Source: Psychroflexus torquis ATCC 700755 | GTDB taxonomy: Bacteria; Bacteroidota; Bacteroidia; Flavobacteriales; Flavobacteriaceae | NCBI RefSeq assembly: GCF_000153485.2 | Contig: NC_018721.1 | Location: 372,001-436,000, forward strand | Reading direction: 5' to 3' | DNA: 64,000 nucleotides | Shown here: positions 15,202-32,542 of the stretch, piece by piece | Position numbering within the stretch: position 1 is the first letter of the stretch | Layout of the letters: each line of letters opens with the position of its first letter | Notes under the pieces: generated by a model | What the model was told of the DNA's origin: nothing | Database searches by the model: none | The model's input: the letters and a program-made list of their open reading frames with translations, nothing else | Position numbers and translations under genes: made by a program

Positions 15202-15203
15202 TT

Positions 15204-15241
15204 AAAAACCCCTTTTGAATCTCAATTCAAAAGGGGTTTTT
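15204..15241 (+). terminator. Terminator after sdaA (bidirectional)
   Basis: A 17-bp perfect stem (left arm 15204-15220 rich in A then CCCCTTTTGAAT, right arm 15225-15241) with a 4-nt loop and a T-run, 2 bp after the sdaA stop. The A-rich left arm gives a T-run on the other strand too, so it also serves the convergent immunophilin gene. Confidence 0.9.
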
Positions 15242-15260
15242 AGTTTATAAGTATCTCTTA

Positions 15261-16196
15261 TTAAGATTTAACCTTCATCAATTCCAAGTCAAAAATCAAG
15301 ATAGAATTAGCCGGAATAACTCCCCCTACTTCCTGGTCACCGTAGGCTAGGTTTGGTGGGATTACGAATTGAGCTTTCGTCCCTTCTTTCAGCAACAATA
15401 AACCTTCATCCCATCCTTCAATAACATGCCCCGCTCCTACTGGAAACTCAATTGGCTCTTTTCTCTTATAAGAAGAATCAAACACATTACCATTGACCAA
15501 GCTTCCTTTATAATGAACACTTATGTTTTGACCTTTTTTAGGGTGTGGGCCACTTCCTTCATTAATAATTTGGTAACGCAAACCGCTTTTAGTCTTTTGA
15601 AATCCCTTTGAAATAGTTTCTAATTGTTCTTCATGCTCAGCGTTTTGCTTAGCTTCTTTTACATTTTTTGAATCCTTAAAATCTTCAAAACTTTCCAAAG
15701 CGTCAAAAGCTTTGGCTTCATCACCAACGCGTTCTATCTCTACAGAGTTTAAAGCATCCTTCATCTCTATGCTATCCACGACATCTTGCCCCTCTAACAC
15801 ATAGCCAAAAACTGTATGCTTACCATCTAACCAACCCGTAGGACCATGAGTGATAAAAAACTGACTCCCATTGGTTCCAGGACCTGCGTTTGCCATGGAC
15901 AAAACTCCAGCTCGGTCGTGTTTTAATTCGGGATGAATTTCATCATCAAATTGATAACCTGGACCTCCAGTACCGTTGCCCCTAGGATCTCCACCTTGTA
16001 CCATAAAGTTCTCTATGACTCTATGAAACTTCAAATCATTATAATAAGGGGTTCCTAAGTCTTTTGCTGTATTTTTTATCTTTCCTTCTGCTAATCCTAT
16101 AAAATTCCCGACGGTGCCGGGAGTTTTTTCAAAGGTCAACTGAACTATAATTTTACCTTTGCTCGTATTAAAATGAGCATATATTCCATTTTCCAT
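15261..16196 (-). CDS. Cyclophilin-FKBP fusion peptidyl-prolyl isomerase
   Basis: A dual-family immunophilin of 311 aa. Residues 1-165 are a cyclophilin domain with [15 protein letters not shown], the [12 protein letters not shown] loop and [20 protein letters not shown] charged helical linker (about 166-200) leads to an FKBP domain at about 205-311 with [32 protein letters not shown] and [13 protein letters not shown]. No signal peptide is visible, so it should be cytoplasmic. Fusions of this order have been described in Flavobacterium. Both active sites look intact. It probably helps proline-limited folding; clients are unknown. Confidence 0.93.
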
Positions 16197-16521: not shown

Positions 16522-16942
16522 AATAAACATAATTTATGCTCAAGTTGATTATTGTGGTACAGATGATAATCCTGCATTGAACTTAAATGACAATAATAAT
16601 TCCTGTAGTATTCATAATCTTTCAAATTATTTAGGTTTTAACGTCAATACTCATTTATTAACTGAAAATAGCTCTAATACCAAATTATATTTATAATGCC
16701 GTATGAATAAATTGAATTATTTTTTGATTGATTGAAATCAAAAATAACTAGCATAGCCTTAGCTACGGTAATTATTTTAGATGAAAAGCAGGCGAAAAAG
16801 AAAAGATTTATTGCGTCATTATAGGTCTAATTTGGTATAATATCAAAATTAGCACAAAGGGTATGGTAAATGGAGTTTATATCATTTCTTTAATATACAT
16901 GGAGGTAAAATTATAGATTCTAAACAACTTATTAAAAAATAA
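16522..16942 (+). pseudogene. Decayed T9SS-secreted protein, split by a MITE
   Basis: Remnant of a secreted protein. A hydrophobic stretch ending in IIYAQ resembles a signal peptide but is broken by a stop and lacks a usable start. It is followed in frame by VDYCGTDDNPALNL. At 16677 a 160-bp MITE-like element interrupts the frame. If it and one TAA repeat are removed, the frame continues as NIKISTKGMVNGVYIISL, the style of a T9SS sorting domain. A one-base deletion then shifts the frame, after which IHGGKIIDSKQLIKK ends at a TAA (16940-16942). The middle of the ancestral protein seems to be deleted. Family of the lost catalytic part unknown. Confidence 0.65.
16678..16837. mobile_element. MITE-like element, copy 1 (160 bp)
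   Basis: A small non-coding element with terminal inverted repeats TACCAAATTA / TAATTTGGTA, flanked by a 3-bp direct repeat TAA (16675-16677 and 16838-16840). Subterminal arms (TATAATGCCGTATGAATAAA and TTTATTGCGTCATTATA) are also nearly inverted. The centre contains AGCATAGCCTTAGCTACGGT, shared with the copies at 24936 and 59523. It encodes no protein. Removing it plus one TAA restores the surrounding reading frame. A 3-bp TNA target fits the IS1031 subgroup of the IS5 family as the possible source of transposase, by inference. Confidence 0.8.
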
Positions 16943-16947
16943 AAAAT

Positions 16948-17865
16948 ATGTATTACAGTAAATTAATTATTATGTTCGGAATTATCTTTATTTGTATACA
17001 TTTTGGATATTCACAAACAACAAAAATTCCTGATGAAAATTTTGAACAAGCACTTATTGATCTCGGTATTGATAGCGACGGCATAGTCAATGGTCAAGTT
17101 TTGACCGCTGATATTGTGAATGTAACAGAATTAGATCTATCCGTTGATTCATTTAATGACCCTGATTATTCTGATTTAGATATTACTGGAATTTCAGATT
17201 TTACAGCATTAGAAATTCTAAATTTAGGAGAACAACCAATTAATTGGAATATAGACGATGAAAATATACTAAATTCAAATCTTAACTTGAGGGAAATCTA
17301 TATTAACAAGGAATCTATAGATGTCGGCTACACTATAGCTATTGAAAGTTTAAATCTGGGTAATCTCCAAGATTTAGAATATGTTGACTTGGGAAATGTT
17401 TATATCAATTCCATAATTCTAGATAATCCCAATTTTGATTATGAAAATTTGACATTGAATTTATTTACAGACTATGATTTGACCCATAATTTTTGCATTC
17501 AAGTTAATGATCCAGTTGCAGCAAATAATAATAATAATCCTCCTTACGATACTTGGACAATAAATTTTAATGATTTCTATACTTCATACAGTTTCACTTC
17601 AAATTGCACGTTAAGTACGGATGATTTTGAGAGCTTCTATTCAATTTCACTGTTTCCAAACCCAGTACAGGAACGTTTGTATTTTGAAAATCCGAAGCAG
17701 ATTACAATAAACGAAGTCGAAATCTTTAATATGGAAGGTAAGTTAGTAAAAACATTTTCTGAAATTAAAAATGGAATCAACTTAGTAAACTTAGGTCGAG
17801 GTGTTTATTTTGTAAAAGTGAAAAATCAAAAAACAACAGAAACATTTAAAATTTTGAAACAATAA
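16948..17865 (+). CDS. T9SS-secreted protein with C-terminal sorting domain
   Basis: A secreted protein of 305 aa. Residues 1-23 are a signal peptide ending GYSQ. The first mature part (IPDENFEQALIDLGIDSDG) and the repeated leucine/asparagine pattern that follows resemble the leucine-rich-repeat secreted proteins common in Flavobacteriia. From about residue 230 comes a type A T9SS sorting domain with SLFPNPVQERLYF, EIFNMEGKLVKTF and GVYFVKVKNQ, ending TFKILKQ. Its role outside the cell is unknown, perhaps adhesion. The last 517 bp lie inside the left 1.58-kb direct repeat; the truncated twin is at 27656-28169. It starts 5 bp after the decayed T9SS gene. Confidence 0.85.
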   Translation: MYYSKLIIMFGIIFICIHFGYSQTTKIPDENFEQALIDLGIDSDGIVNGQVLTADIVNVTELDLSVDSFNDPDYSDLDITGISDFTALEILNLGEQPINWNIDDENILNSNLNLREIYINKESIDVGYTIAIESLNLGNLQDLEYVDLGNVYINSIILDNPNFDYENLTLNLFTDYDLTHNFCIQVNDPVAANNNNNPPYDTWTINFNDFYTSYSFTSNCTLSTDDFESFYSISLFPNPVQERLYFENPKQITINEVEIFNMEGKLVKTFSEIKNGINLVNLGRGVYFVKVKNQKTTETFKILKQ

Positions 17866-17871
17866 AAATCT

Positions 17872-18489
17872 TTAATTCAGGTTAAATAGCATGTTTTTAT
17901 TCAGTAATATCCTTTTATTTATTGAATGTGTTTTGAACTCTTCTCGATTATCGTAAATATAGATCTCAGTAGCTCCTAAACCGTATTTTTGGTAATCTGC
18001 ATCGTAAAATTCAACCTGGTCATACCGTCTAAAAAGAGTGTGTAATTCTGCTTTTAGAACACCTTGCCCAACGCCATGAATAAAAACAATGCGTTTTATT
18101 CTCTTTTCGAGAGCAAATTCGATTTTCTTTCGAGTGTGTTCTAGTTGAATATTTAGCATTTCAAAATTAGAAAGGTGTCCAGATCTATCGACCAAGTTAT
18201 GAATATGAAGATCTACTTCCATCGCTGGCTGTTGTCTTTTAGGTTTTTGAGAGGGTTTCTTTGGTTTTCGGTTGAGATCAGCATTCAGTTTTTGAATTAA
18301 ACTATCGTCTCCCATATCAATATCCAAGTCACCTTCAATCTTTATCACTAACGAAAATGGAACTTTCATTTCGAAGCCATCAGAGGTTTCAAAAGTAACT
18401 TCATGGCCTTCTACTTTTATAACAATACCAGACACGTTATCGTCGAGAAGTTCTACACTATCTCCTATCCTAAAATTTCTATTGCTCAT
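17872..18489 (-). CDS. Smr-domain protein, left copy (C-terminally extended)
   Basis: A small protein with an N-terminal KOW/SH3-like segment (FRIGDSVELLDDNVSGIVIK) and a C-terminal Smr (MutS2-related) domain with EVDLHIHNL, FIHGVGQGVLKAEL and GATEIYIYDN. Smr domains act as endonucleases on DNA or RNA in several proteins; the role of this family in Bacteroidota is not known to me. The start is ATG 18489 (MSNRNFRIGD), matching the right copy. This copy has 205 aa because the codon read as TGA in the right copy is CGA here, adding 25 residues after YIYDN. It overlaps the upstream small membrane protein gene by 11 bp. Confidence 0.85.
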   Translation of the reverse strand: MSNRNFRIGDSVELLDDNVSGIVIKVEGHEVTFETSDGFEMKVPFSLVIKIEGDLDIDMGDDSLIQKLNADLNRKPKKPSQKPKRQQPAMEVDLHIHNLVDRSGHLSNFEMLNIQLEHTRKKIEFALEKRIKRIVFIHGVGQGVLKAELHTLFRRYDQVEFYDADYQKYGLGATEIYIYDNREEFKTHSINKRILLNKNMLFNLN

Positions 18490-18688
18490 CTTCAGAAGAT
18501 TCTTCGTTATCTTTAGGGTTGTCTCTTGTCCACTGCTTGGTCGAATTATATAAACCCACCATGAGAATAACCAAGCCTCCAATTTTTATAAATACATTAT
18601 CATCCGTATCGATAAGATCGAAGATAAGAAGACCTGCTCCAATAATAATAAAAGCTGTATAAATAGCTTGTCTTTTAGTATTGATCAT
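18479..18688 (-). CDS. Small two-helix membrane protein, left copy
   Basis: A 69-aa protein with two hydrophobic segments (about residues 9-25 and 32-48) separated by DLIDTDDN, and a hydrophilic acidic tail ending SSEDEQ. It overlaps the Smr gene start by 11 bp, which suggests coupled translation. The right copy at 28783 differs by one residue (T to A in KQWTRDN). No known function; the pair with the Smr gene is conserved in both repeats. Confidence 0.8.
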   Translation of the reverse strand: MINTKRQAIYTAFIIIGAGLLIFDLIDTDDNVFIKIGGLVILMVGLYNSTKQWTRDNPKDNEESSEDEQ

Positions 18689-18719
18689 GTTTAAAGATTT
18701 TTAAAAATCAAAGATAAGT

Positions 18720-18927
18720 TCAATTTCTGTTTAGAGACAACAATTCCTCTAGGTATTGCCGATCATTGGATAATCTCGGAATTTTATGCTGGCCTCCCAA
18801 TTTATTATTTTGCTTTAACCAATGCTGAAATAGCTTAGGTCTAGCTTCATGAAGCGTCAATAGATCTAGAGTCATATTATTATAACGCTTAGCTTCATAG
18901 TCACTGTTGATGTCTTGTAAATTTTGA
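18720..18927 (-). pseudogene. GH3 gene C-terminal fragment (left repeat)
   Basis: The last 69 codons of a GH3-family gene, nearly identical to the end of the complete gene at 29024. It is cut at 18927, where the left repeat ends, and its frame then runs into the serine hydrolase remnant. It cannot yield a functional GH3 protein. Confidence 0.9.
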
Positions 18928-19189
18928 ATAAAGCATTAGGATTGGCAGGGATTTTATGTTCTCGGTTATGCCAACCCGCTGTATAAAATGCTGGTGGCTT
19001 GCCTGCTTCGTCAACATAAACAATGACACCATCAAAACCATAACTTAATGACTTATCCACTTGCTCTTGAACCGTATCTGGTAAAGGTAATATCCATGCT
19101 TTTACTAAAATCCAGGGTACGAAATATAATGAGGCTAGGCTTGCCATAATAAATACTATTCTGAGTATTTGCTGTGTTTGTTTCTTCAT
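18928..19189 (-). pseudogene. Serine hydrolase (beta-lactamase-like), N-terminal fragment
   Basis: About 87 residues of a membrane-anchored serine hydrolase. An N-terminal hydrophobic segment (residues 9-32) is followed by FDGVIVYVDEAGKPPAFYTAGW and IPANPNALFKI, the stretch just before the SxxK catalytic motif of class C beta-lactamase-like proteins. The gene is cut at the junction with the left repeat, so the SxxK motif and all that follows are absent; the open frame continues 18 codons into GH3-derived sequence as an accidental tail. It is the last gene of the minus-strand group with the DUF6090 and acyltransferase genes. Confidence 0.8.
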
Positions 19190-19217
19190 AATCTTATAAT
19201 TTTTCTGGCAGTTGTTT

Positions 19218-19925
19218 CTAATTATTGTTACCTATTATGGTTAATGTGTTTTTAAATTTCTTTAAGGATTTAATTGAATTGGCATAAGCATCTTGATTTT
19301 GTTTTATTGTAACCAATCTCGATAAAACCATGTTTTCAAAATATACCTCCTTCCCATAATTTTCTGAAGACATGCCCATAAACCTAAATCTTACATTTGG
19401 CATCAAAAAATTTTCATAAAATGCTGCGATTCCTTGATGATCCAAAGATTCAAACCTTTCTATAGGGTGGAATGTTTCGTATGTTTCAGATATAGAATTA
19501 CGTAAGTTTAAATCGTCAAACAATTTTAGGTCGCCAGAAAACTTTAAATTTTCATAGGTGATCATTATTGGGTAAAATTTATTAGAGGCAAGGAGTACGA
19601 ATGATTTTAATGATAATTTAGGATTATCGTATTCTTTGTTTTCTAATAATTGAAACAACGTGTCTAGCTCTTTAAGCATTTTAATTGCTTCATTTTCATA
19701 CTCGGTTAATTGTTTAATGTTGCGATCTGCTTCATCATTTAACTGAATAATATATACATCTCGTAACGCTAAATTGTTTTTATTTTTCGATTGCTCATTA
19801 ATTGCTAACGCAATAAGGATTCCAATAATTACAAGAATTATTTCTCCAATGGCATAGGCTAGATACTTTCCAAACTTGTTCTCCACTATGAGGTCTTTTC
19901 TTATAGTTCTAAAAATTTTTTTCAT
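19218..19925 (-). CDS. DUF6090 family membrane protein
   Basis: 235 aa. The diagnostic N-terminus has a short basic stretch (IRKDLIVENKFGKY) followed by one membrane segment AIGEIILVIIGILIALAIN and then a mostly helical extracytoplasmic domain. This arrangement is typical of DUF6090, a family widespread and often multi-copy in Flavobacteriia with no known function. It overlaps the upstream acyltransferase gene by 17 bp and precedes the serine hydrolase fragment by 28 bp, so the three were one operon. Confidence 0.85.
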   Translation of the reverse strand: MKKIFRTIRKDLIVENKFGKYLAYAIGEIILVIIGILIALAINEQSKNKNNLALRDVYIIQLNDEADRNIKQLTEYENEAIKMLKELDTLFQLLENKEYDNPKLSLKSFVLLASNKFYPIMITYENLKFSGDLKLFDDLNLRNSISETYETFHPIERFESLDHQGIAAFYENFLMPNVRFRFMGMSSENYGKEVYFENMVLSRLVTIKQNQDAYANSIKSLKKFKNTLTIIGNNN

Positions 19926-21039
19926 AATCCAATGGCTTTTTTATGTTCAACACCTCTTTTTTAGAGGTGCTATTATATTCTAATTTGTTGAATTCCCATT
20001 TCAGACCAAATAAAGGTCTTAAGAAACCAATCCTTCTAATGATGAATTCGTAAATGAGGTAGCAGGCTAAACCAGTAAAAGTTACGATAGCTATAAATTT
20101 TAGCATAATAGGCAGATCCAACGGTAATATAAACAGGGCAACGGTATAGAGTACAAACATGTGAATAATGTACACCGGATAGGCTGCTTGGCTTAAGTAG
20201 CTTAAAGTTTTACTGGGTTTGTTTAAGTACTTATAACCAAAACCGAAAACTCCAAATATCCAACAATTAGACTCAATAGCCATGAGGTACCCAGGCGCTT
20301 CAAATTCAAATAATCCTAATCTAATCCCATACATAATAATCGCTAAGCTAGTATTCAACCATCTCCATTTTAAAACGGTTTGCCAAAACGGTTTACCACT
20401 ATACACTACAAGAAAACCGAAAAAGAAAGCCAAAAACCCATTAAAAAAGCCATGCCAAGTCTGGGCATACAATGCAAACAGCTGCGGCTTTACCAGCAAA
20501 ACTTCAAGGACAAAAAATAAGGATATCAACATAGGTCCGCTAGGATGGCTCATTACAACCGATAGTACTCTTTTGATTTTACCGTTCTCATGCTTTTTCA
20601 GATAATAATAGAGTGGTAAAAGTAAGAGTACATACACAAAGATGTTTCCTAAGAACCATAAATGACCTTGATGTGGATAATATCCCAAGGGCATATGATA
20701 GTATTTCTGAAAAATAAATAGATGCAATGGGGTAATGGCTATTATACCAAAAGTAAAGGGCAATAAGATTCGTTTTGTCCGTTCCAAAAGCAATTGTTTC
20801 CAGTTTCGTTTTCGCATGGCGAAATAAAGCCCCATTCCTGATACGAAGAATAAAAGTGGAATTCGCCAAACGTTTAACATGGTCATGGGTGTCCATAAAG
20901 CGACTACTGGTTCGTCACTCTTTATAAAGCCAATAAACATGGCCCAAGGTTGAAAAATGATGGCGATGTGGTAGATTAATAATAAACCAATGGCAATCAC
21001 TCGCAACCAATCGATATCGTGTCTTCTTTCTGATGTCAT
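19909..21039 (-). CDS. Acyltransferase 3 / OpgC-like membrane protein
   Basis: An integral membrane acyltransferase of 376 aa with about ten hydrophobic segments. The N-terminal HDIDWLRVIAIGLLLIYH carries the family's catalytic-type histidine and the DWLRV signature shared with OpgC (glucan succinyltransferase). RIPLLFFVSGMGLYFAMRKR and HLWFLGN are further family motifs. The substrate is unknown; such enzymes acylate surface glycans or lipids. It lies 53 bp after the ankyrin lipoprotein gene and overlaps the DUF6090 gene, forming one transcription unit within the DNA bracketed by the direct repeats. Confidence 0.88.
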   Translation of the reverse strand: MTSERRHDIDWLRVIAIGLLLIYHIAIIFQPWAMFIGFIKSDEPVVALWTPMTMLNVWRIPLLFFVSGMGLYFAMRKRNWKQLLLERTKRILLPFTFGIIAITPLHLFIFQKYYHMPLGYYPHQGHLWFLGNIFVYVLLLLPLYYYLKKHENGKIKRVLSVVMSHPSGPMLISLFFVLEVLLVKPQLFALYAQTWHGFFNGFLAFFFGFLVVYSGKPFWQTVLKWRWLNTSLAIIMYGIRLGLFEFEAPGYLMAIESNCWIFGVFGFGYKYLNKPSKTLSYLSQAAYPVYIIHMFVLYTVALFILPLDLPIMLKFIAIVTFTGLACYLIYEFIIRRIGFLRPLFGLKWEFNKLEYNSTSKKEVLNIKKPLDYEKNF

Positions 21040-21092
21040 TTTAGTACTGTTTTTTAAAATAATTAAAGTCTGTATATAAAATCAATTTTTAA

Positions 21093-21692
21093 CTATTGTA
21101 GCATCATAGCTATCACAGGACGCGTTTTTTCTATCTCGTTTAAATCAAATTCCAAACCAAATGGTCCCAATTGTTGTTGAAGCATTTCATAGAAAGGTTT
21201 TATCTCTGCGAATGGACCCATCACACTTTCCCTTGGTGTCATACCAAAATTGTTTTTTAGGGTCTTATCTGCTTTGGCAGCAATAAGCAGTTGTACGATT
21301 TCGACGTGACAAAAGAATGCAGCAACGTGCAAGGCTGTTGCGCCATCGTTATTTTTAAAGGACAAATCTGTTTTAGCAGCAATTAATACTTTAACAATAC
21401 TAGTTTTGCCAAAGGTCACAGCCGAGATCAGAGGTGTCGCCCCACTCATTTGATCTTTCTTATTAATATCAGTTCCCGCTTTTATATGTTGTTTAACCAT
21501 TTTGAGGTTGTTGGACATAATTGCTGTTTGGAGGTCAATTTTTGGTACAGCTACTATTGTTTTGGCTTTAGCATTATTTTCCGTGGGAGTCTTATCATTC
21601 TTGCCTGATTCAGCGCAAGAACTCAATAATAAAAAGATACCTAAAGAGAGAGTTAATCCTGTTTTAAAGGAATTAATTTTGTGTGTTTTCAT
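21093..21692 (-). CDS. Ankyrin-repeat lipoprotein
   Basis: 199 aa. A signal peptide ends in lipobox LLSSC (Cys27), so the protein is lipid-anchored. After a spacer come about three ankyrin repeats (around residues 53-150), visible in DGATALHVAAFFCHVEIVQ and the preceding SGATPLISAVTFGKTSIVK. The C-terminal part is not repeat-like. Ankyrin repeats mediate protein contacts. It is the first gene of the minus-strand group and is divergent from the AraC/TPR regulator across 235 bp, an arrangement that suggests regulation by it. Confidence 0.85.
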   Translation of the reverse strand: MKTHKINSFKTGLTLSLGIFLLLSSCAESGKNDKTPTENNAKAKTIVAVPKIDLQTAIMSNNLKMVKQHIKAGTDINKKDQMSGATPLISAVTFGKTSIVKVLIAAKTDLSFKNNDGATALHVAAFFCHVEIVQLLIAAKADKTLKNNFGMTPRESVMGPFAEIKPFYEMLQQQLGPFGLEFDLNEIEKTRPVIAMMLQ

Positions 21693-21927
21693 GATTTTTG
21701 TTTTTAATATTTAATATTATTTTTTTTTGTTGTGCAAAGATGGGGGAAGTGTGGAGACCTTACCTATGAGCTATGTAGCAACAGGTATCAAGTTTGAGGT
21801 CGAGATAAAAACTATGGCGCAAGGATATAAATTATGATGCAAAAATTGTCTTTTTAAATAATTATGCCTGTAATCTTATAACCCGTATCTGAATAATTTT
21901 GTCTAATTTAGACTAATCAAAAACTGC

Positions 21928-23979
21928 ATGTCAAGCACATCAATCACTGAATCAGACTTTATTAATCAGGCAAATACCATTGTTCTGGAGAATATCTCCA
22001 ATGAGCAATTCGGAGTTTCTGGATTGGCAGAAATGATGAATATGAGTCGTTCTAATCTGCTCAGAAAAATTAAAAAGGAAACACAACTTTCTCCGAGTCA
22101 ATTTATTAATAAAGTGCGCCTTATAAAAAGTATGGAAATGTTGGAGCAGCACAAATGGACTATTTCTGAGATTTCATACCAAGTAGGTTTTGGAAGTACA
22201 TCCTATTTTATTAAATGCTTTCGAGAGTATTATGGACATCCGCCAGGAGAGGTAGGAAAAGGAATCTTGGTTGATGAAAATAGCGCTATTGAGGTCAATG
22301 TTTTGAGCAGATACAAGTGGCAGATGCTTACAGCGTTGTCTTTAATCGTAATTCTTATATCCGTTTTGCTACTTCATAAGGAAAGTACAGTTACTAATGA
22401 AATTGAAAAATCTATTGCGGTGTTGCCTTTTAAAAATGAAAGCAGCGATTCTTTGAACCTATATTTCGTTAATGGGCTCATGGAGTCTGCTTTGAACAAG
22501 TTACAGAAAATTGGTGACTTACGCGTTATTAGTAGAACCTCGGTAGAGAAATATAGACATTCGAATAAGGATATTCAAGAAATAGCTAAGGAGCTCAATG
22601 TAAATTACTTGGTAGAAGGCAGTGGCCAGCGCGTCGGAGATCAAGTGTTGCTCAATATCCAATTAATTGACGCGTCAAATGATCGACCGATTTGGGTGGA
22701 ACAATATAGTCGTGAAGTGAGAGATGTATTTGCGCTTCAGAATGAAGTGGCTAAGAAAATAGCATCTGCTATTGAGGCCACTGTGACGCCAGCTGAATTG
22801 GAACAAATCGAGAAAAAACCAACCGAAAACCTGATCGCTTATGACTACTATTTACAGGCACTTGACCCATTTCTAATGCGAACAGATAAAGGCCTTGAAA
22901 AGGCCATTGGATTATTTGAAAAAGCGATTGAACAAGACCCTGAGTTCGCACTGGCTTTTGCCAATATCGCTATCTCATACTATCTTCTTGAAATGGACCA
23001 TATCGAAAAACAGTATACCGATAAGATTAATAGTTATGCCGATAAGGCCTTACTTTATGATTCAAAATCCGACGCAAGTCTGATCGCCAAGGCTTTTTAT
23101 TACATACAAATAAAAGAGTACCAATTAGCCTTGCCACATCTTGAGAAGGCCTTGAACTATAATCCAAATTCATCTCTAGCAGTGCAAATGCTTGCGGATT
23201 TCTATTTTCGTTTGATTCCCAATACGAACAAGTACCTAGAGTATGCCCTAAAAGGAGTGCAGCTTAATGTTGCTAATGATTCTGTCACACAGAGCTATAT
23301 TTATTTGGGTCTTGGTAATGCACTCATCGAAAACGGTTTTGTAAATGAGGCGATGACATACATCAATAAATCTCTAACCTACGATCCTAAGAATTACTAT
23401 GCTCCGTATTTAAAAACGCTGATCTTATTTGCTAAGGACAGTAATATCGAAACCGCTACAAAGTTATTAGAGCGAGAGTGGCAAAATGATACTACCCGCT
23501 TGGATATCTTACAGGACGTCGCTAATTTTCATTATTACCAAGAGAATTATAACAGGGCCTTTTTTTACTTTGAGAAATTTATTAAAGCAAAAGAAACCTA
23601 CGGATTAGATATTTATCCCCACGAAGACATAAAAATCGGTATGGTTTATAAAAAGATGGGCTTGGACACACAAGCTGCCAAATTTTTTAGTGCATACGCT
23701 GAATTTTGCGAAACAGATCAATCCATCTACAAGAGTGCTAGTCTGGTTACAAAGTACGTCCAAGAGGGTGAAAATGACCAAGCAATAGATCAGCTCAAGG
23801 TATTCGCAACACAAGATAATTACAAGTACTGGTTTTTGGTCTTCATGGAAATTGACCCGTTAATTAAACCTTTGAAAAACCATCCAGAGTTTGAGCAAGT
23901 CATGCAAAAGATCAAAGACCGCTTTTGGGAAAATCAGTTGAACTTGAGAAAGTCGCTTGAAGTGAAAGGACTGATTTAA
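21928..23979 (+). CDS. Transmembrane AraC / TolB-like / TPR regulator
   Basis: A one-chain regulator of 683 aa. An AraC-type double helix-turn-helix at residues 10-105 (GVSGLAEMMNMSRSNLLRKI, ISEISYQVGFGSTSYFIKCF) lies at the N-terminus, not the usual C-terminus. One membrane helix follows (about 132-150). Next is a TolB N-terminal-like domain (SIAVLPFKNES, then LNVNYLVEGSGQRVGDQVLL) at about 155-290, and then TPR repeats to the C-terminus, predicted to lie outside the membrane. This is the CadC/ToxR idea built from AraC parts. It likely senses an envelope signal and controls the divergent acyltransferase operon; that target is inferred from position only. Confidence 0.9.
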   Translation: MSSTSITESDFINQANTIVLENISNEQFGVSGLAEMMNMSRSNLLRKIKKETQLSPSQFINKVRLIKSMEMLEQHKWTISEISYQVGFGSTSYFIKCFREYYGHPPGEVGKGILVDENSAIEVNVLSRYKWQMLTALSLIVILISVLLLHKESTVTNEIEKSIAVLPFKNESSDSLNLYFVNGLMESALNKLQKIGDLRVISRTSVEKYRHSNKDIQEIAKELNVNYLVEGSGQRVGDQVLLNIQLIDASNDRPIWVEQYSREVRDVFALQNEVAKKIASAIEATVTPAELEQIEKKPTENLIAYDYYLQALDPFLMRTDKGLEKAIGLFEKAIEQDPEFALAFANIAISYYLLEMDHIEKQYTDKINSYADKALLYDSKSDASLIAKAFYYIQIKEYQLALPHLEKALNYNPNSSLAVQMLADFYFRLIPNTNKYLEYALKGVQLNVANDSVTQSYIYLGLGNALIENGFVNEAMTYINKSLTYDPKNYYAPYLKTLILFAKDSNIETATKLLEREWQNDTTRLDILQDVANFHYYQENYNRAFFYFEKFIKAKETYGLDIYPHEDIKIGMVYKKMGLDTQAAKFFSAYAEFCETDQSIYKSASLVTKYVQEGENDQAIDQLKVFATQDNYKYWFLVFMEIDPLIKPLKNHPEFEQVMQKIKDRFWENQLNLRKSLEVKGLI

Positions 23980-24051
23980 TCAAGTAAACGATAAATATTC
24001 CACTAAACTTTTATTTGATTAGCCATCCAAAGCACAGCACTTCTGCCTGTT

Positions 24052-24300
24052 TTATTTAATAATAAAGTCGTGCATCTTATTCTTCGATTTCCATTGCTCT
24101 CCTATTTTAGCTTCATAAAAAGAGTGTTTACCCTGAACCTTTTTTATTTTATAAATAGGTGCTTGTGAACCCAGAATAAGTTTGGCTAGCGTATAATCTC
24201 TTTCTTCGGTTTCATTAATATCGTGAAGAAACTGTAGGATAAATTTTTTTAATAAACTGTAGAATAACTTTCGCTTTTTTCCAAATCGAGAAAAGAAGAT
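24052..24300 (-). pseudogene. Unrecognised coding remnant without start
   Basis: An 82-codon open stretch on the minus strand that starts directly after a stop (24303-24301) and has no start codon. Its composition looks protein-like, with segments such as INETEERDYTLAKLILGSQ and SFYEAKIGEQWKSKNKMH, ending DFIIK at TAA. I do not recognise a family. It lies in a 670-bp gap after the AraC/TPR gene and is probably the end of a lost gene. Confidence 0.35.
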
Positions 24301-24438
24301 TCATGAACTCCATGCTATAAAATATAAATCTTGTGAGCAAGGCTCAAGTTACATAAGACAATAATTTAATAGTACATTTTTAATTATGGATGATTATGAG
24401 GGTGGAGCTATTTATAAACAAATGATGTGCTGTATAAA

Positions 24439-24585
24439 TTATAAAATCATATTTATCATTCTGATGCTAAAACCGAGTAAACTATAAATGGTCTCTAAAT
24501 GCCTTTCGTTAGTACTGATTAAAAAATCAACTCCTTCCCTCCTATTGTCCTAGAAATAATCGCTTAAAAAATTAGTGATTTTATC
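24439..24585 (-). pseudogene. Short unrecognised coding remnant with internal stop
   Basis: A minus-strand stretch reading KITNFLSDYF, a stop, then DNRREGVDFLISTNERHLET and a short tail. It looks like eroded protein-coding DNA but is too short to identify. The remaining gap up to 24650 shows nothing else apart from the promoter region of the following AraC-like gene. Confidence 0.2.
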
Positions 24586-24650
24586 CTAATTTTCTGCATC
24601 AAATTTTACTTTTACACTACGAATGTTTAAGTGTTTTTCCAGTATTAAGT

Positions 24651-25898
24651 GTGATTTTTGGACTGGTCTTAATGGTTTTTATTCTTTTTAATAAATTTGG
24701 ACTTGGAAAGAACAAAAAGATACGTTATGTTTCACCTTCCTTACTATTTATTTATGTAGTTAAGGCATTAGACTATCATCTTTCGATTACTAACCAAGTA
24801 ACTGCTACCTATTCGGGAGTTACCTACTTTTTCTATCATTTTACAGGATTATTATTTTACTATTTCATCGCACTTTATACCAAATCTGAAATAAATATTA
24901 AAAAATGGGGGCCAGTAGTTATTGGGTATACCTTATACCAATTTAGTTTTTAAATGTGGCATTAAAAATTTGAATTATTTTTTACTTAATTGAGGAAAAA
25001 ATATAAGCATAGCAATAGTTACGGTTCTATTTTATGACGATTAGTAAGTGAAAAAGAAACTGATTTTATACGACATTTGAATGCTAAATTGGTATTACTC
25101 CGTATTATAGTATTTTTTCCTTTTGATCACAATCAAAATCTACAAGATTTTGTAGCAGCATTAGAGACTTCAAACTACGGAATATTCGTCTTAGTGGAAT
25201 ATATCTTGGTGAGTTCTATCAATATTGCGCTTATGTTTCTTGCCTATAAGAAATTGAAAAATGCTCCACTACAAATTGAACTAAATGAAAGTCAAAAAAA
25301 CCTTTACAAGTGGATTAAGATTATCATAATCGCAATTGTACTCCTTCAAATTCTAGTTTTTGTGACCACAATTCTAGGTAGCTTAGATATTGGTCATTTT
25401 AACCTCTATCTAAAATTTGAAACTTTTATCTATTCGATATTCTTCTTCATATTCGCGTTTTCTATACTGCATTTTCATGTATTTGCGTATTCTGGAAATT
25501 TCGAAGATTTACCCACGGCTACTATCGAGAAATATGCAAAGTCATCCTTATCTGATTCTTCAGCTCTTTTTAAGAAAATAAAAGCTATCGTAAATGAGGA
25601 AAAGATGTACTTGGACTTCGATTTAAAATTGAATACCGTCGCTGAAAAATTAAATCACTCCATTCATCATATATCACAGGCTATCAACCAAAATGCAAAA
25701 AAGAGTTTCCCCGATTTTATTAGCAGCTTCAGAATTGAAGAGGCTAAAAAGAAACTTATGGAGCCTAAACCAGATACCATATTTACTATTTCTTTAGATG
25801 TAAGCTTTAATAGCAAAGCTGCTTTTTACACTGCTTTCAAAAAACATACACAACTGACTCCTACCGAATTTAAAAAACTTTACAAATCTACAGATTGA
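24651..25898 (+). pseudogene. AraC-family regulator with membrane N-terminus, split by a MITE
   Basis: A membrane-linked AraC regulator in two pieces: 24651-24935 (several hydrophobic segments, for example LVLMVFILFNKFGL) and 25098-25898 (further membrane segments, then an AraC DNA-binding domain from about SFPDFISSFRIEEAKKKLME to HTQLTPTEFKKLY). A 159-bp MITE-like element with a TTA duplication lies between them. Deleting the element and one TTA gives ...GYTL-LRIIVFF... in one uninterrupted frame of about 361 residues. The true start is uncertain: a GTG at 24651 is the first candidate in frame, and coding-like codons continue above it. As it stands no full protein can be made. Confidence 0.88.
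24936..25094. mobile_element. MITE-like element, copy 2 (159 bp), inside an AraC gene
   Basis: Terminal inverted repeats TACCAATTTAG / CTAAATTGGTA, flanked by TTA on both sides (24933-24935 and 25095-25097). The interior aligns with copies 1 and 3 through TTGAATTATTTTTT, AGCATAGC and GTTACGGT. It has no coding capacity; its stop codons end the left half of the AraC gene and its ATG at 25077 gives the right half an accidental start. Confidence 0.88.
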
Positions 25899-26012
25899 TA
25901 TAAGGTGTTGATTGTATTATTTTTAAATACATAAAGAGCATCTTAACGATAAACGAAGACACTTTTTTTGTTTGGTATTATAAGGAGAAACACTATTGTG
26001 ATTCTTCTAAAA

Positions 26013-26020
26013 TATATTTG
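26013..26020 (+). promoter_or_regulatory. Candidate -7 element before the barrel pseudogene
   Basis: TATATTTG matches TAnnTTTG and lies 25 bases before the ATG at 26046, a normal spacing for a short leader. It is probably the relic promoter of the decayed outer-membrane protein gene. Confidence 0.3.
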
Positions 26021-26045
26021 CATCTTAATTTAAAATATATCAATT

Positions 26046-26331
26046 ATGATAAAATTAGGTATAGTATCAACTATTGTTATTTTCGGAATATCAAATGTAA
26101 TCAATACTCTAAATATTGATTTTAGATTTAAAACAGATATTAACATATCAAATTTATCAGGAGGTGCAACAGGTACAAGTATCTTAGGTTGTTTTTTACT
26201 TTGGTGAACATGCCGAATGTAAGATAAATGAAAAAAAATCACTTCAACCGGAACTATTGTTTTCTAGACAAGGTTCGAAAATCGAAAAAAGAAACATTTT
26301 TAATTTTGCTGTAGTTGCGACCAGACACTAA
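26046..26331 (+). pseudogene. Outer-membrane beta-barrel protein, frameshifted N-terminal remnant
   Basis: Begins like a secreted porin-family protein: a hydrophobic leader (IVSTIVIFGISNV) and then FKTDINISNLSGGATGTSIL. The frame stops at 26205-26207. In another frame the reading continues as YFGEHAECKINEKKSLQPEL and LFSRQGSKIE, the first hairpin pattern of PorT-like outer-membrane barrels (KISEKFSLQPELL...RQG is usual). The rest of the barrel is absent; the frame closes at 26331. So the gene is frameshifted and truncated. Confidence 0.55.
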
Positions 26332-26440
26332 TTGCATCACTAAAATTAAAACATTCATAAAATGAGTTTCACACGATTAGTATCTTTATTTGAAGGGTCT
26401 CAAATAATGACCTTCATTGCCTAATTTTGTATTTTCAAAA

Positions 26441-26743
26441 TTAGCCTAATTGTCCTACCCAATTTCCAAATTGATGACCTGCATAGCACATAGCATATGG
26501 ATTTGGTAGAACTACTGCTCCTGATAAAACGTGTAAGAAATTTTTTGTTTTACCATCTTCTTCTAAAAGTCCAACATGCGCTAACATCTTTGGCAATGTA
26601 CGCAGTAAAGACAGATTGTTAGGGGTTTTAGCTCTTACATAAGAAAAGCGAGCTTCTTCAACCTGTCTTCTAGAATTTTCTAAAATTGAATCTGCTGGCA
26701 GCTTTTTATTGAACGTGTCTTTTATATTGAATTTTACTGCCAT
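26441..26743 (-). pseudogene. SelO (YdiU) protein adenylyltransferase, N-terminal fragment
   Basis: The first 100 residues of SelO, a pseudokinase-fold enzyme that AMPylates proteins. The start MAVKFNIKDTF and the motif YAMCYAGHQFGNWVGQLG are clear, but a stop follows immediately where homologues continue with DGRA and about 400 further residues. The nucleotide-binding and catalytic parts are therefore lost. A longer in-frame ATG at 26776 exists but gives no family-like residues. Confidence 0.8.
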
Positions 26744-26776
26744 ACTAATTTTCTCTCCTATTTGCAAAGTTAACAC

Positions 26777-26994
26777 ACAAGTCCTTTTGTACTACATTTT
26801 TATGGTATCCTAGTATTCCAATGCTTACTACTTGTTGCTATAGCTTTTATGTGTGCACAGACCGTAACTGCTTAATAATTTAAATTATATGTTACTCGAA
26901 GGTTTTTTTACCCATACCTTTAGTTTGCATAAAGACATGAAAAAACCTCCCTTTTTGTAGAACGGTTTATACCTTTTTTATGATTGAAGAAATA
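26777..26994. other. Gap with a signal-peptide-like remnant
   Basis: No intact gene. On the plus strand near 26825-26875 a short stretch reads LLLVAIAFMCAQTVTA and then a stop, which looks like the leader of a lost secreted protein. Nothing else is recognisable. Confidence 0.2.
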
Positions 26995-27655
26995 TTAATG
27001 AACAATAATTGTATCAGAATTATTATCTGGATCATTATTTACAGTTCCATCAGAACTCGCATTACCCAATAGTAAAACTCCTGCTGCGTGAGGCGCAGCC
27101 ATTGAAGTACGGTTTTGTATAACATACCCCCCGTTTTTATAAGTAGATAAAACAGAAGACACTGGATCACAATAATCTACTGGAGGATTTCCAAAGTTTG
27201 AAAAGCTTGACCAGTTATCACCCTCAGACATGGAAGAGATTGTGTAAATATTATCTCCATTAGCTCTTGCTGGTGAATTATTGTTTGCATCTCCAGAATC
27301 ATTACCAGCAGCTAATATAAAACGAACTCCGGTTTGAGCTGCTGCAGCGACAGCCGCATCTAGTAACGTATAGTTAGAAACTGCTCCCAAACTCATATTT
27401 GCGACATCTCCGTCATTTCCGTTTGCTGCCACGTAATCTACACCGGCAATAACACCAAACCAAGTTCCATCACCTTCAGAATTTAAAACCTTTACAGGTA
27501 TAACACTTACTCCTGCTGCCACTCCTATGACTCAAAATCCATTATCTAAGGCTCCAATAGTTCCCGCTACGTGAGATCCATGTCCCATAAGATCATCAAA
27601 TGACAGTCCATCTATTCCAGATGTAAAAGCATTGAAACCACTCGATGCGTCTACA
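26995..27655 (-). pseudogene. Subtilisin-like protease (S8), truncated with nonsense codon
   Basis: The C-terminal two thirds of a subtilase. The catalytic histidine lies in MGHGSHVAGTIGA, the oxyanion asparagine in FILAAGNDSGD and the catalytic serine in RTSMAAPHAAGVLLLG; the natural C-terminus DTIIVH is kept. The N-terminal part with the catalytic aspartate is lost where the right direct repeat begins. A TGA (27530-27532) stands where homologues read G in GFGVIGVAAG. Either lesion alone would inactivate the gene. Confidence 0.88.
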
Positions 27656-28169
27656 TTTAAATCTGGGTAATCTCCAAGATTTAGAATATGTTGACTTAGG
27701 AAATGTTTATATCAATTCCATAATTCTAGATAATCCCAATTTTGATTATGAAAATTTGACATTGAATTTATTTACAGACTATGATTTGACCCATAATTTT
27801 TGCATTCAAGTTAATGATCCAGTTGCAGCAAATAATAATAATCCTCCTTACGATACTTGGACAATAAATTTTAATGATTTCTATACTTCATACAGTTTCA
27901 CTTCAAATTGCACGTTAAGTACGGATGATTTTGAGAGCTTCTATTCAATTTCACTGTTTCCAAACCCAGTACAGGAACGTTTGTATTTTGAAAATCCGAA
28001 GCAGATTACAATAAACGAAGTCGAAATCTTTAATATGGAAGGTAAATTAGTAAAAACATTTTCTGAAATTAAAAATGGAATCAACTTAGTAAACTTAGGT
28101 CGAGGTGTTTATTTTGTAAAAGTGAAAAATCAAAAAACAACAGAAACGTTTAAAATTTTGAAACAATAA
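27656..28169 (+). pseudogene. T9SS protein C-terminal fragment (right repeat)
   Basis: The last 171 codons of the T9SS-secreted protein at 16948, without signal peptide. It begins at the junction with the subtilase remnant; an ATG in that remnant (27645) happens to be in frame, giving an open reading frame of 174 codons, but the product would lack export signals. One asparagine codon is missing in the AAT run compared with the full gene. Confidence 0.88.
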
Positions 28170-28247
28170 AAATCTTTAATTCAGGTTAAATAGCATGTTT
28201 TTATTCAGTAATATCCTTTTATTTATTGAATGTGTTTTGAACTCTTC

Positions 28248-28793
28248 TCAATTATCGTAAATATAGATCTCAGTAGCTCCTAAACCGTATTTTTGGTAAT
28301 CTGCATCGTAAAATTCAACCTGGTCATACCGTCTAAAAAGAGTGTGTAATTCTGCTTTTAGAACACCTTGCCCAACGCCATGAATAAAAACAATGCGTTT
28401 AATTCTCTTTTCAATAGCAAATTCGATTTTCTTTCGAGTGTGTTCTAGTTGAATATTTAGCATTTCAAAATTAGAAAGGTGTCCAGATTTGTCGACCAAG
28501 TTATGAATATGAAGATCTACTTCCATCGCTGGCTGTTGTCTTTTAGGCTTTTGAGAGGGTTGTTTGGGTTTTCGGTTGAGATCAGCATTCAGTTTTTGAA
28601 TTAAACTATCGTCTCCCATATCAATATCCAAGTCACCTTCAATCTTTATAACTAACGAAAATGGAACTTTCATTTCGAAGCCATCAGAGGTTTCAAAAGT
28701 AACTTCATGATCCTCTACTTTTATAACAATACCAGACACGTTATCGTCGAGAAGTTCTACACTATCTCCTATCCTAAAATTTCTATTGCTCAT
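28248..28793 (-). CDS. Smr-domain protein, right copy
   Basis: 181 aa, the same domain order as the left copy: KOW/SH3-like N-terminus, a basic proline/lysine linker (RKPKQPSQKPKRQQP) and a C-terminal Smr domain with EVDLHIHNL and FIHGVGQGVLKAEL. It ends at YIYDN with TGA, which I think is the ancestral end because this is where Smr domains normally stop; the left copy reads through. A handful of conservative substitutions (for example G to D, R to K) distinguish the proteins. It overlaps the small membrane gene by 11 bp. Confidence 0.88.
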   Translation of the reverse strand: MSNRNFRIGDSVELLDDNVSGIVIKVEDHEVTFETSDGFEMKVPFSLVIKIEGDLDIDMGDDSLIQKLNADLNRKPKQPSQKPKRQQPAMEVDLHIHNLVDKSGHLSNFEMLNIQLEHTRKKIEFAIEKRIKRIVFIHGVGQGVLKAELHTLFRRYDQVEFYDADYQKYGLGATEIYIYDN

Positions 28794-28992
28794 CTTCAGA
28801 AGATTCTTCGTTATCTTTAGGGTTGTCTCTTGCCCACTGCTTGGTCGAATTATATAAACCCACCATGAGAATAACCAAGCCTCCTATTTTTATAAATACA
28901 TTATCATCCGTATCGATAAGATCGAAAATAAGAAGACCAGCTCCAATAATAATAAAAGCTGTGTAAATAGCCTGCCTTTTAGTATTAATCAT
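28783..28992 (-). CDS. Small two-helix membrane protein, right copy
   Basis: 69 aa, almost identical to the left copy at 18479. Two hydrophobic helices (about 9-25 and 32-48) and an acidic tail. It lies 31 bp downstream of the GH3 gene and overlaps the Smr gene, so GH3, this protein and Smr form the ancestral operon order. Confidence 0.8.
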   Translation of the reverse strand: MINTKRQAIYTAFIIIGAGLLIFDLIDTDDNVFIKIGGLVILMVGLYNSTKQWARDNPKDNEESSEDEQ

Positions 28993-29023
28993 ATTTAAAG
29001 GTTTTTAAAAATCAAAGATAAGT

Positions 29024-30541
29024 TCAATTTCTGTTTAGAGACAACAATTCCTCTAGGTATTGCCGATCGTTGGATAATCTCGGAATTTTATGCTGGCCTC
29101 CCAATTTATTATTTTGCTTTAACCAATGCTGAAATAACTTAGGTCTAGCTTCATGAAGCGTCAATAGATCTAGAGTCATATTATTATAACGCTTAGCTTC
29201 ATAGTCACTGTTGATGTCTTGTAAATTTTGATCTAAACATCTTCTGAAATCGTTTAAGCAGCAAGGGGGCGTCCTAAATTCAATAATCCATTCATGCGCG
29301 CCTTTCTTTTTACCTTCCATAAATATAGGAGCCGCTGTATATTCAATAACCTCGCAATCAAATTCGCAAGAGGTTTTCTTAATGGCAGCTTCTGCATTTT
29401 CAATAATTAGCTCTTCACCAAAGACATTAATGTGGTGTTTAGTCCTCCCTGTGACTCTTATTCTAAATGGATCCAAACACGTAAACCGGATTGTATCTCC
29501 AATTTTATAACGCCATAATCCCGCATTGGTTGTAATCACCAATGCATAATTTTCATTCACTTCCACTTCACTCAAGGGAATTACTTTTTCATAAGGAGTG
29601 CCGTGAGTAGACATGGGGATGAATTCAAAGAAAATCCCATAATCCAACATCAAAAGCAAGTCATTGGAATCATTTAAGTCTTGAGCGGCAAAAAAACCTT
29701 CCGAAGCATTGTAGATTTCATAATACTTCATTTTAGAGCTTTTAATAAGTTTGTCATATTGATTTCTATAGGGTTCAAAACTTACACCTCCATGAAAATA
29801 AACTTCTAGATCTGGCCACACTTCATCAATAGATGATTTCCCAGTTGTTTTGAGCACATCGTTCATTAGCACTAACATCCAAGAGGGTACACCAGCAAGA
29901 CTTGTCACTCGCTCTTTTATAGTTTCGTCCACTATAGCTTGCATTTTTGTTTCCCAATCGCTCATCAAAGAAACGCCACTACCTGGAGTACTGCTGAAAC
30001 TTGCCCAAAAAGGCATATTATAAATAAGCAAAGCAGAAAGATCTCCATAGGAGGTTCCATTGCTTTGGTAAATTTCTTTACTTCCACCAAGCCTAAGGCT
30101 TTTACCTGTAAATAGTTTGGAATCGGGATTATTATTGAGATAAATACAAAGCAGGTCTTTGCTTGCGGCATAATGGCAGTCTTCGAGAGACTCTTGGCTC
30201 ACAGGTATAAATTTGCTTTTGGCACTAGTGGTCCCACTAGATTTGGCAAACATTGTAATAGGTGTAGGCCAAATAAGATTACTTTCACCACGTCTGCTAC
30301 GCTCAAAAGTAGGCTCTAAGTCTTCATAAACTTGAATAGGAAGCCTCTCTTTAAAAGTATCATAATTTTTTATGCCATGAAACCTATATTTTTTTCCAAA
30401 TTCCGTATTTTGGGCTTTATAAACCAAATCCATAAGTAATTCGTTTTGGACTTCATTAGGATGTTTTTTAAACAATTCCATATGATGAATGCGCTTCTTC
30501 AAAATCCAAGAAGCTATAGAATTTACAATCGGTATGGCCAT
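29024..30541 (-). CDS. GH3-family acyl-acid-amido synthetase homologue
   Basis: 505 aa, a bacterial member of the GH3 family of the adenylating superfamily. In plants these enzymes adenylate hormones such as auxin and join them to amino acids. The nucleotide-binding SSGTTSAKSKFIPVS lies at 101-115; WRYKIGDTIRFT and VTGRTKHHINVFGEELIIEN are the following ATP-binding motifs. No signal peptide. The bacterial substrate is not known to me; fatty or keto acids are possible. The gene is complete here, whereas only its end is present in the left repeat at 18720. Confidence 0.9.
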   Translation of the reverse strand: MAIPIVNSIASWILKKRIHHMELFKKHPNEVQNELLMDLVYKAQNTEFGKKYRFHGIKNYDTFKERLPIQVYEDLEPTFERSRRGESNLIWPTPITMFAKSSGTTSAKSKFIPVSQESLEDCHYAASKDLLCIYLNNNPDSKLFTGKSLRLGGSKEIYQSNGTSYGDLSALLIYNMPFWASFSSTPGSGVSLMSDWETKMQAIVDETIKERVTSLAGVPSWMLVLMNDVLKTTGKSSIDEVWPDLEVYFHGGVSFEPYRNQYDKLIKSSKMKYYEIYNASEGFFAAQDLNDSNDLLLMLDYGIFFEFIPMSTHGTPYEKVIPLSEVEVNENYALVITTNAGLWRYKIGDTIRFTCLDPFRIRVTGRTKHHINVFGEELIIENAEAAIKKTSCEFDCEVIEYTAAPIFMEGKKKGAHEWIIEFRTPPCCLNDFRRCLDQNLQDINSDYEAKRYNNMTLDLLTLHEARPKLFQHWLKQNNKLGGQHKIPRLSNDRQYLEELLSLNRN

Positions 30542-30612
30542 ACAATCAATATATTTAAATTCTGAATTCTTAACTTAGTTTACTGTTAACAATTCATCAA
30601 ACTTAATAAAAA

Positions 30613-31410
30613 ATGCAATATAGAGGAGTCTTAAGAAAAATGAAAACTGAGAATAATGAAGAAGTCGATTATTTTCTAGAATTTGAAAATGATATTGTTC
30701 ACATCAATCAATTACTAGATAGAGAATTAGCGATTTATTTTGTAGAATATCAGTGTTTAAACTGCGGAAAAAATAAAAAAATATTCAGACAAGGGTTTTG
30801 TTACGACTGTTTTCAAGAAATTCCTAGTGCAGGAGATTGGATTATGCGTCCAGAATTAAGCAAAGCTCATCTAGGGGAAGAGGATAGAGATTTGGACTAC
30901 GAGAAAAAAGTACAATTGAAACCTCATATTGTTTATCTAGCTAATTCCAGTAACGTAAAGGTAGGAGTAACTCGAAAAAGTCAAATTCCGACGCGTTGGA
31001 TAGATCAAGGCGCTCATAAAGCGATTGTTATCCTTGAAACTCCAAATCGATATCTAGCCGGCATAACTGAGGTAGCCCTAAAAAAACATGTCGCCGATAA
31101 AACCAATTGGCGAACCATGTTAAAAAATGAAATCGAGGACAAAAATTTAGCAGAAGAACGCGATAAGCTCAAAGAATTTATACCCGATGAAACCAAAGAG
31201 TTTTATCTTAAAGACGCACAAGAATTTTCTATGAATTTCCCCGTCATTGAATATCCAAAAAAACTAAAAAGCTTAAACTTAGAAAAGGATAACTCCTTTA
31301 AAGGAAAACTGAAAGGAATAAAAGGCCAGTATTTGATTTTTGAAAACGATGTAGTCTTCAATGTTCGGAATAGTGAAGGTTATGTTGTGGATTTTGAAAT
31401 AGTATCCTAA
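30613..31410 (+). CDS. DUF2797 protein with zinc-finger motif
   Basis: 265 aa, cytoplasmic. A four-cysteine cluster (CLNCGKNKKIFRQGFCYDC, about residues 49-67) suggests a bound zinc ion. It is followed by the conserved HIVYLANSSNVKVGVTRKSQ and TRWIDQGA, which recall a GIY-YIG-like fold. DUF2797 occurs in many bacteria and archaea with no known role. It is divergent from the GH3 gene and followed by a good terminator. Confidence 0.85.
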   Translation: MQYRGVLRKMKTENNEEVDYFLEFENDIVHINQLLDRELAIYFVEYQCLNCGKNKKIFRQGFCYDCFQEIPSAGDWIMRPELSKAHLGEEDRDLDYEKKVQLKPHIVYLANSSNVKVGVTRKSQIPTRWIDQGAHKAIVILETPNRYLAGITEVALKKHVADKTNWRTMLKNEIEDKNLAEERDKLKEFIPDETKEFYLKDAQEFSMNFPVIEYPKKLKSLNLEKDNSFKGKLKGIKGQYLIFENDVVFNVRNSEGYVVDFEIVS

Positions 31411-31418
31411 ACAAGAAT

Positions 31419-31443
31419 ACCCTGTGATTATAAATCACAGGGT
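31419..31443 (+). terminator. Terminator after DUF2797 gene
   Basis: An 11-bp perfect stem ACCCTGTGATT / AATCACAGGGT with a 3-nt loop, 8 bp after the stop codon and followed by TTTATATAT. It stands between the convergent DUF2797 and rpsU genes and may serve both. Confidence 0.75.
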
Positions 31444-31465
31444 TTATATATCCATGTAAAAAATA

Positions 31466-31660
31466 CTACATATTATCCTTCTCTCTCAGAGTTTGGATAT
31501 ATTGAGCTTTTTTCATATTTTGTCTTTTTTCAACAGATTTTTTCGTGAATTGTTTCTTATCACGTAGAGTTTGAAGAACTTTAGTATCTCTAAACTTTCG
31601 CTTAAGACGCTTTAATGCTCTTTCAATTTTCTCACCATCTTTTACTTTTACTACTAACAT
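31466..31660 (-). CDS. rpsU: 30S ribosomal protein S21
   Basis: 64 aa, very basic. The N-terminus MLVVKVKDGEKIERALKRLK and the following KRKFRDTKVLQTLRDKKQF are classic S21, a small-subunit protein involved in translation initiation; in Bacteroidota it has been linked to sequestering the anti-Shine-Dalgarno end of 16S rRNA. It is transcribed alone toward the terminator at 31419. Confidence 0.97.
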   Translation of the reverse strand: MLVVKVKDGEKIERALKRLKRKFRDTKVLQTLRDKKQFTKKSVEKRQNMKKAQYIQTLREKDNM

Positions 31661-31750
31661 ATAATGATTAATTATTTACGGTTGACATAAATTTTCGAAT
31701 TGCAAATATATATAATTCAAACTTTCCAACCTTCTATAAATTAATAATTT

Positions 31751-32482: not shown

Positions 32483-32542
32483 AGAGAGCTTATATATCGA
32501 ATAATCTTTTGTTAACTGTGGCAAAAAAAGGGATTAAAAACC

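Follow-up and report, generated by a model that had tools for sequence, protein, structure and literature searches.

In this study, we describe a stretch of the Psychroflexus torquis ATCC 700755 genome in which two direct copies of a 1.58-kb segment bracket 8.7 kb of foreign DNA. The segment belongs to a locus composed of a gene for a secreted protein sorted by the type IX secretion system (T9SS), an Smr-domain gene and a GH3-family gene. Coordinates throughout are positions in the window, the whole stretch of 64,000 nt that was analyzed (bases 372001-436000 of the genome). The left copy carries the whole T9SS gene and a cut GH3 gene, while the right copy carries a cut T9SS gene and the whole GH3 gene; direct homologous copies with complementary truncations thus bracket foreign DNA, as in Campbell-type (single-crossover) integration. 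The arrangement is real and its mechanism probably ordinary. Homologous capture of incoming DNA that carried the allelic segment of another strain is the explanation we favor, with about an even chance of being correct. The repeats, their joints with the insert and the genes of the locus are as follows:

17349..18927, no strand, left repeat copy, containing the 3' part of the T9SS gene, the Smr gene, a small open reading frame (ORF) and a 3' fragment of the GH3 gene
27656..29231, no strand, right repeat copy, containing a 3' fragment of the T9SS gene, the Smr gene, the small ORF and the 3' part of the GH3 gene
18920..18927, no strand, left joint, an 8-bp identity (AATTTTGA) of the GH3 and serine hydrolase genes
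27656..27666, no strand, right joint, an 11-bp identity (TTTAAATCTGG) of the subtilase and T9SS genes
16948..17865, forward strand, complete gene of the T9SS-sorted secreted protein, 305 amino acids (Por_Secre_tail PF18962, E 6.8e-13), its 3' part within the left repeat
17944..18489, reverse strand, left Smr-domain gene (domain by Pfam), 182 codons compared
18720..18927, reverse strand, left GH3 gene fragment, 3' end only, from the alignment of the copies
27656..28169, forward strand, 5'-truncated 3' fragment of the T9SS gene with the sorting domain kept and 0 right-specific changes in 514 bp
28248..28793, reverse strand, right Smr-domain gene (domain by Pfam), 181 amino acids, with 6 right-specific changes, all synonymous
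29024..30541, reverse strand, complete GH3-family gene (OlsH-like; PF03321, 209.5 bits)

The two copies were compared by gapped alignment, in which 1547 of 1579 columns were identical and the differences consisted of 29 substitutions and one 3-bp gap (approximately 2% divergence, unevenly distributed along the length). A preliminary description of this DNA had reported the recurrence of block 17349-18927 at 27656-29231 with complementary truncations and had proposed aligning the copies; the alignment confirmed the coordinates exactly, and the truncations as well. Searching the P. torquis genome (4,321,832 bp, single contig) returned these two as the only full copies, together with a third, partial match (67%) near 2.376 Mb. 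Reversal of the arrangement by recombination between the copies appears plausible. Stretches of perfect identity between them reach 215 bp and would offer a substrate for recombination.

An uninterrupted locus in related genomes, which the preliminary description had suggested looking for, was found in G022, the closest genome among those searched. G022 possesses a single T9SS-Smr-GH3 locus without the insert. On its locus L051, 5339-7433 aligns to 16838-18937 of the window with 96.0% identity and 5847-16001 aligns to 27656-37810 with 92.1% identity (10 kb), the G022 sequence running unbroken from the equivalent of the left copy into the sequence 3' of the right copy. Both copies and their flanks cover the G022 locus free of gaps, and no target DNA was lost in P. 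torquis; a deletion of recipient DNA beside the insert was not seen, the target being duplicated instead. The single-locus state presumed to precede the event is represented here by another species. In the genus search (27 genomes, P. torquis included), 25 genomes gave some match, G022 had one copy (96%) and two full-length copies occurred in P. torquis only, the genomes without match being G006 (80% complete) and G018 (79% complete). No second Smr or GH3 copy was found within the stretches covered of 80 named loci around GH3 genes.

At the inner edges, the preliminary description had placed cuts in a serine hydrolase gene and a subtilase gene at short matching sequences, which agrees with the identities of 8 and 11 bp displayed by some intact relatives. 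Nine serine-hydrolase relatives were compared at the left joint: all 8 bases of AATTTTGA were present in four (L176, L185, L186 and L187), 7 bases in L175, L059 and L178, and fewer in L053 and L177. Among the four subtilase relatives compared at the right joint, all 11 bases of TTTAAATCTGG were present in L056 and L179 and eight in L057, while L180 did not match. By chance, two random positions in the window share an exact match of 8 bp or more with a frequency of 3e-4 and one of 11 bp or more with a frequency of 1.3e-5. The lengths of 8 and 11 bp are estimates taken from intact relatives, not from the parental sequences.

For the favored capture, we infer that the donor was another strain, that there was only one event, that the incoming DNA was circular or linear and that the product would be reversible. 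The T9SS-Smr-GH3 fragment of 1.58 kb on the incoming molecule would have come from a closely related strain, and short identities would mark where it was joined to the patchwork of foreign genes. Pairing over the homologous 1.58 kb would have inserted the entire molecule and duplicated the fragment by one exchange. The donor could have been a circle, such as a linear piece re-closed by end joining, that entered through a single crossover; alternatively, a linear donor could have paired by homology at one of its ends and been attached at microhomology at the other. In principle, recombination between the copies could excise 10.3 kb and bring back the single locus. The single-crossover reading given in the preliminary description stands as to the geometry, the cut genes, the short identities and the uninterrupted G022 locus, but circular and linear donors cannot be distinguished here, and tandem duplication persists as a rival, possible at a chance well short of even.

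Known systems offer partial likenesses. Linear, non-replicating DNA homologous to the E. coli chromosome at one end was reported to integrate mostly through a single crossover of the re-closed circle; of the clones described, 56 of 60 were positive for a duplication by polymerase chain reaction, and its length in the 14 clones sequenced was 109-950 bp (PMC3240628). The P. torquis arrangement is similar in that foreign DNA lies beside a direct duplication of the homologous segment; unlike that laboratory cross with a non-replicative plasmid, it is a natural 8.7-kb mosaic with 1.58-kb copies diverged by 2%, known here from the recipient genome only (PMC3240628). For homology-facilitated illegitimate recombination, which uses homology at one end and forms an illegitimate joint at the other, the same source gives 3-10 bp of joint identity in most reported cases, with three of the four such E. 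coli clones showing no homology at the joint (PMC3240628). Our left joint (8 bp) falls within this range and the right joint (11 bp) just above it, both lengths as judged from relatives, whereas the process as described there generally deletes recipient DNA and P. torquis has a duplication (PMC3240628). Transformation-induced tandem duplications (merodiploids) of Streptococcus pneumoniae are alike in that partly homologous incoming DNA generates direct duplications; those described are unlike the P. torquis scar in measuring approximately 100-900 kb, arising at pre-existing chromosomal repeats and lacking a foreign mosaic at the junction (PMC3784515).

The rival tandem duplication would have occurred in situ within the lineage; foreign DNA would then have entered between the copies, deletions at short identities would have trimmed the inner genes, and the copies would have diverged in place. 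Such deletions are a common process, and decay is visible within the insert (cut genes and an in-frame stop). When copy differences were polarized with G022 as the outgroup, the copy-specific changes were similar in number, which also favors this history (15 substitutions and a 3-bp insertion in the left copy, 12 substitutions in the right copy and 2 ambiguous, with 49 columns separating both copies from G022). The even divergence expected of in-situ duplication was not found. Between the copies, 4 substitutions (and the 3-bp gap) lie in 703 bp of a tract over the T9SS gene and 25 in the 873 bp past a breakpoint inside Smr, the position of which was set from the G022 comparison; this is about a fivefold change in divergence (Fisher p 5e-4). 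Later gene conversion or exchange could rescue the in-situ duplication and is required by it.

Compared with G022 in 100-bp windows, the left copy and the part upstream of it show 15 differences in 1194 bp up to 18037 and 59 in 890 bp beyond. The right copy shows 2 differences in 700 bp up to 28355, after which the level is that of the flank, mostly 4-14 per 100 bp through 37810. The T9SS tract (16838-18050 and 27656-28355) is thus approximately 99% identical to G022 and the flanks are 92-94% identical. Isolated windows of low difference occur elsewhere (for example, 0/100 at 30456 and 2/200 at 14431), none of them as long as the T9SS tract. The T9SS protein is 98.4% identical to that of G022; of its 305 codons, 5 differ synonymously and 4 nonsynonymously, while the GH3 gene has 80 synonymous codon differences in 506. 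Slow evolution was rejected as the cause of this near-identity, since against G021 the T9SS protein is the fastest of the three (57% identity, compared with 72% for Smr and 82% for GH3), and constraint therefore cannot account for the conserved tract under in-situ duplication. Because the T9SS gene is fast against G021 yet nearly identical to that of G022, the most likely history of the tract is an exchange between the P. torquis and G022 lineages that took place after their split.

The segments that the event made non-functional are nearly unchanged, with 0 new changes in the 514 bp of the right T9SS fragment and 1 in the 208 bp of the left GH3 fragment, which is difficult to reconcile with long divergence in place after an in-situ duplication. 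Together, the uneven divergence and these segments suggest that much of the divergence is older than the duplication and that the copies came from two strains. The single new change in 722 bp of non-functional segments has a Poisson P of 0.004 under a uniform rate, but this test overlaps with the effect of the T9SS tract, and little can be read from the GH3 part by itself. Several observations weigh against this account and the capture that it would support. The left Smr gene has lost its stop codon (CGA, versus TGA in the right copy and G022) and has four further left-specific amino-acid changes; counted by codon, it has 5 nonsynonymous changes (stop loss included) and 3 synonymous ones, compared with 0 and 6 in the right copy (Fisher p 0.03; codon 27 was set aside, its amino-acid change being common to both copies and its third base ambiguous). 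This is relaxed evolution as expected if the left Smr had been redundant for some time, and it speaks for in-situ duplication. In both copies, the T9SS tract of low divergence breaks at the same point. A simple history of two strains would not lead to this, and further exchange or conversion from copy to copy is needed under any of the models. Full joint identity is absent in part of the relatives, and no replication or mobilization genes were found in the scanned ORFs of the insert. Competence of P. torquis is only putative as well: ComEC- and DprA-family genes are present in the genome, but each also occurs in 10 of 14 control genomes and is hence unspecific. One report describes natural competence in Riemerella species of the family and found Flavobacterium johnsoniae to be non-competent under those conditions (PMC7965970).

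Interchromatid (double) illegitimate recombination, in which each end of a foreign fragment is joined at a microhomology to a different sister copy of the locus and the 1.58 kb between the joining points is duplicated, is improbable. The short identities at both joints fit it, and transformation-induced duplication through sister-chromatid pairing is documented in S. pneumoniae; the documented case needs homology on both sides and concerns duplications of approximately 100 to 900 kb (PMC3784515), and copies that were initially identical would meet the same dating problem as an in-situ duplication. An assembly artefact or mixed culture is more improbable still, since repeats of 1.58 kb can mislead assemblers but these copies are told apart by 29 substitutions and a gap, the sequence next to the joints is unique and the genome consists of one contig.

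The insert itself (8728 bases) is a mosaic of foreign blocks and truncated genes, listed here from left to right:

18928..19189, reverse strand, 5' fragment of a serine hydrolase gene, to which nine relatives align over 212-271 bp with 74-85% DNA identity
19218..19925, reverse strand, DUF6090-like protein (PF19578, 22.1 bits, just under the 23.5-bit cut-off; 66% amino-acid identity in L156)
19909..21039, reverse strand, acyltransferase-3 family protein (PF01757, E 2.3e-26)
21093..21692, reverse strand, ankyrin-repeat protein (PF12796, E 3.2e-18)
21928..23979, forward strand, AraC/TPR regulator (by Pfam; DNA collinear in relatives), the end of a block of conserved order
24605..25992, forward strand, second AraC-type regulator gene, split, with a dispersed repeat at approximately 24932-25095
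26441..26776, reverse strand, 5' fragment of SelO (by Pfam), with similarity to L181, the only intact SelO in the comparison, ending at 26445
26995..27655, reverse strand, 3' fragment of a subtilase (S8) gene (by Pfam), cut at the right joint and with an in-frame TGA at 27532-27534

The serine-hydrolase fragment had no Pfam or NCBIfam match of its own; its name comes from DNA alignment with longer relatives, which include an annotated serine hydrolase. The first 5 kb of the insert, from this fragment to the AraC/TPR regulator, mostly keeps the same order in other Flavobacteriaceae and is collinear at the DNA level in G286, G301, G174 and G404, where the DUF6090 stretch is unaligned. SelO was found in one of the 26 other genus genomes, and in P. 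torquis as this fragment only; the family search was also positive in 4 of 14 control genomes. The patchwork may reflect several joinings or later deletions, and the picture would be the same either way.

An origin of the insert within the P. torquis genome was rejected, as the matches listed there, with 40 of 252 candidates scored, were a paralogue of the AraC-type locus (84%, without the repeat, at G000:C1:4034207-4035434), a serine-hydrolase relative (74%) and the dispersed repeat. No close donor was found in 397 genomes evenly drawn from the family (P. torquis included), 285 of which match some part of the insert; the best non-self matches there reached 68-72% over approximately 3.5-4 kb, 81% over 1.1 kb and 84% over 0.2 kb. 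For the 7973 of 8728 insert bases searched, there was no phage match and one plasmid match (187 bp, 70%, in the serine-hydrolase stretch), and phage and plasmid origins were set aside. Insertion by a transposon, an integrase or tRNA targeting was likewise dismissed: the 16 ORFs scanned with Pfam contain no transposase or integrase, the window has no tRNA gene and the joints show only identities of 8-11 bp. Rfam gave no match in 12000-33000.

An elaborated form of the favored capture, which we consider unlikely, is that at least four unrelated scraps (the block from serine hydrolase to AraC/TPR regulator, the AraC locus, the SelO fragment and the subtilase fragment) were stitched by microhomology to a locus fragment of a sister strain, the composite then being captured by one homologous crossover in a genome without detectable Ku. 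Ku-dependent end joining was rejected, as Ku had no match in the P. torquis genome (B. subtilis was the sole positive of 14 control genomes). If true, the stitched composite would be a natural record of the assembly of environmental DNA before integration.

As for the locus, an Smr neighbor was present in 7 of the 80 named GH3 loci, all of these 7 being among the 8 from Psychroflexus, while the T9SS gene had no match in any of the 80 (E 1e-6); the T9SS gene therefore looks like an accessory gene next to an older Smr-GH3 pair. Its tract is probably a recent between-species exchange of an accessory secreted-protein gene. The best NCBIfam match of the GH3-family gene was NF052613 (lyso-ornithine lipid synthetase OlsH) with 416.6 bits, below the 620-bit cut-off. 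G021 has a T9SS-Smr-GH3 locus (67%) at C1:69722-71704 and three further T9SS-like matches on other contigs (C7:2-852, C57:112-1036 and C23:431-562). In G022, approximately 2 kb upstream of the T9SS gene (L051 3208-5284), with ORFs of 414 and 200 amino acids, does not align to the window.

Dispersed elements of approximately 150-185 bp with imperfect terminal inverted repeats lie at 16685-16837, 24932-25095 and 59522-59691, the related types being about 70% alike. The 24932-type element occurs at about 40 or more other places in the P. torquis genome (at least 43 distinct starts among the own-genome matches listed), and at 24932 it interrupts the AraC-type gene, a paralogue of which is free of it. 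G022 lacks the element at 16685, and its sequence is continuous across the site, with an apparent short target repeat. These elements look like a miniature transposable element that was active after the species split.

In conclusion, the event is of a known kind and its scar is well preserved. As an unusually legible case from nature, it illustrates how unrelated, partly broken foreign DNA can be brought in additively by a short homologous segment, with the target locus still usable. If the copies proved to be alleles of different strains, the event would be dated and directed, and single-crossover capture would add to gene gain in an environmental (sea-ice) species.

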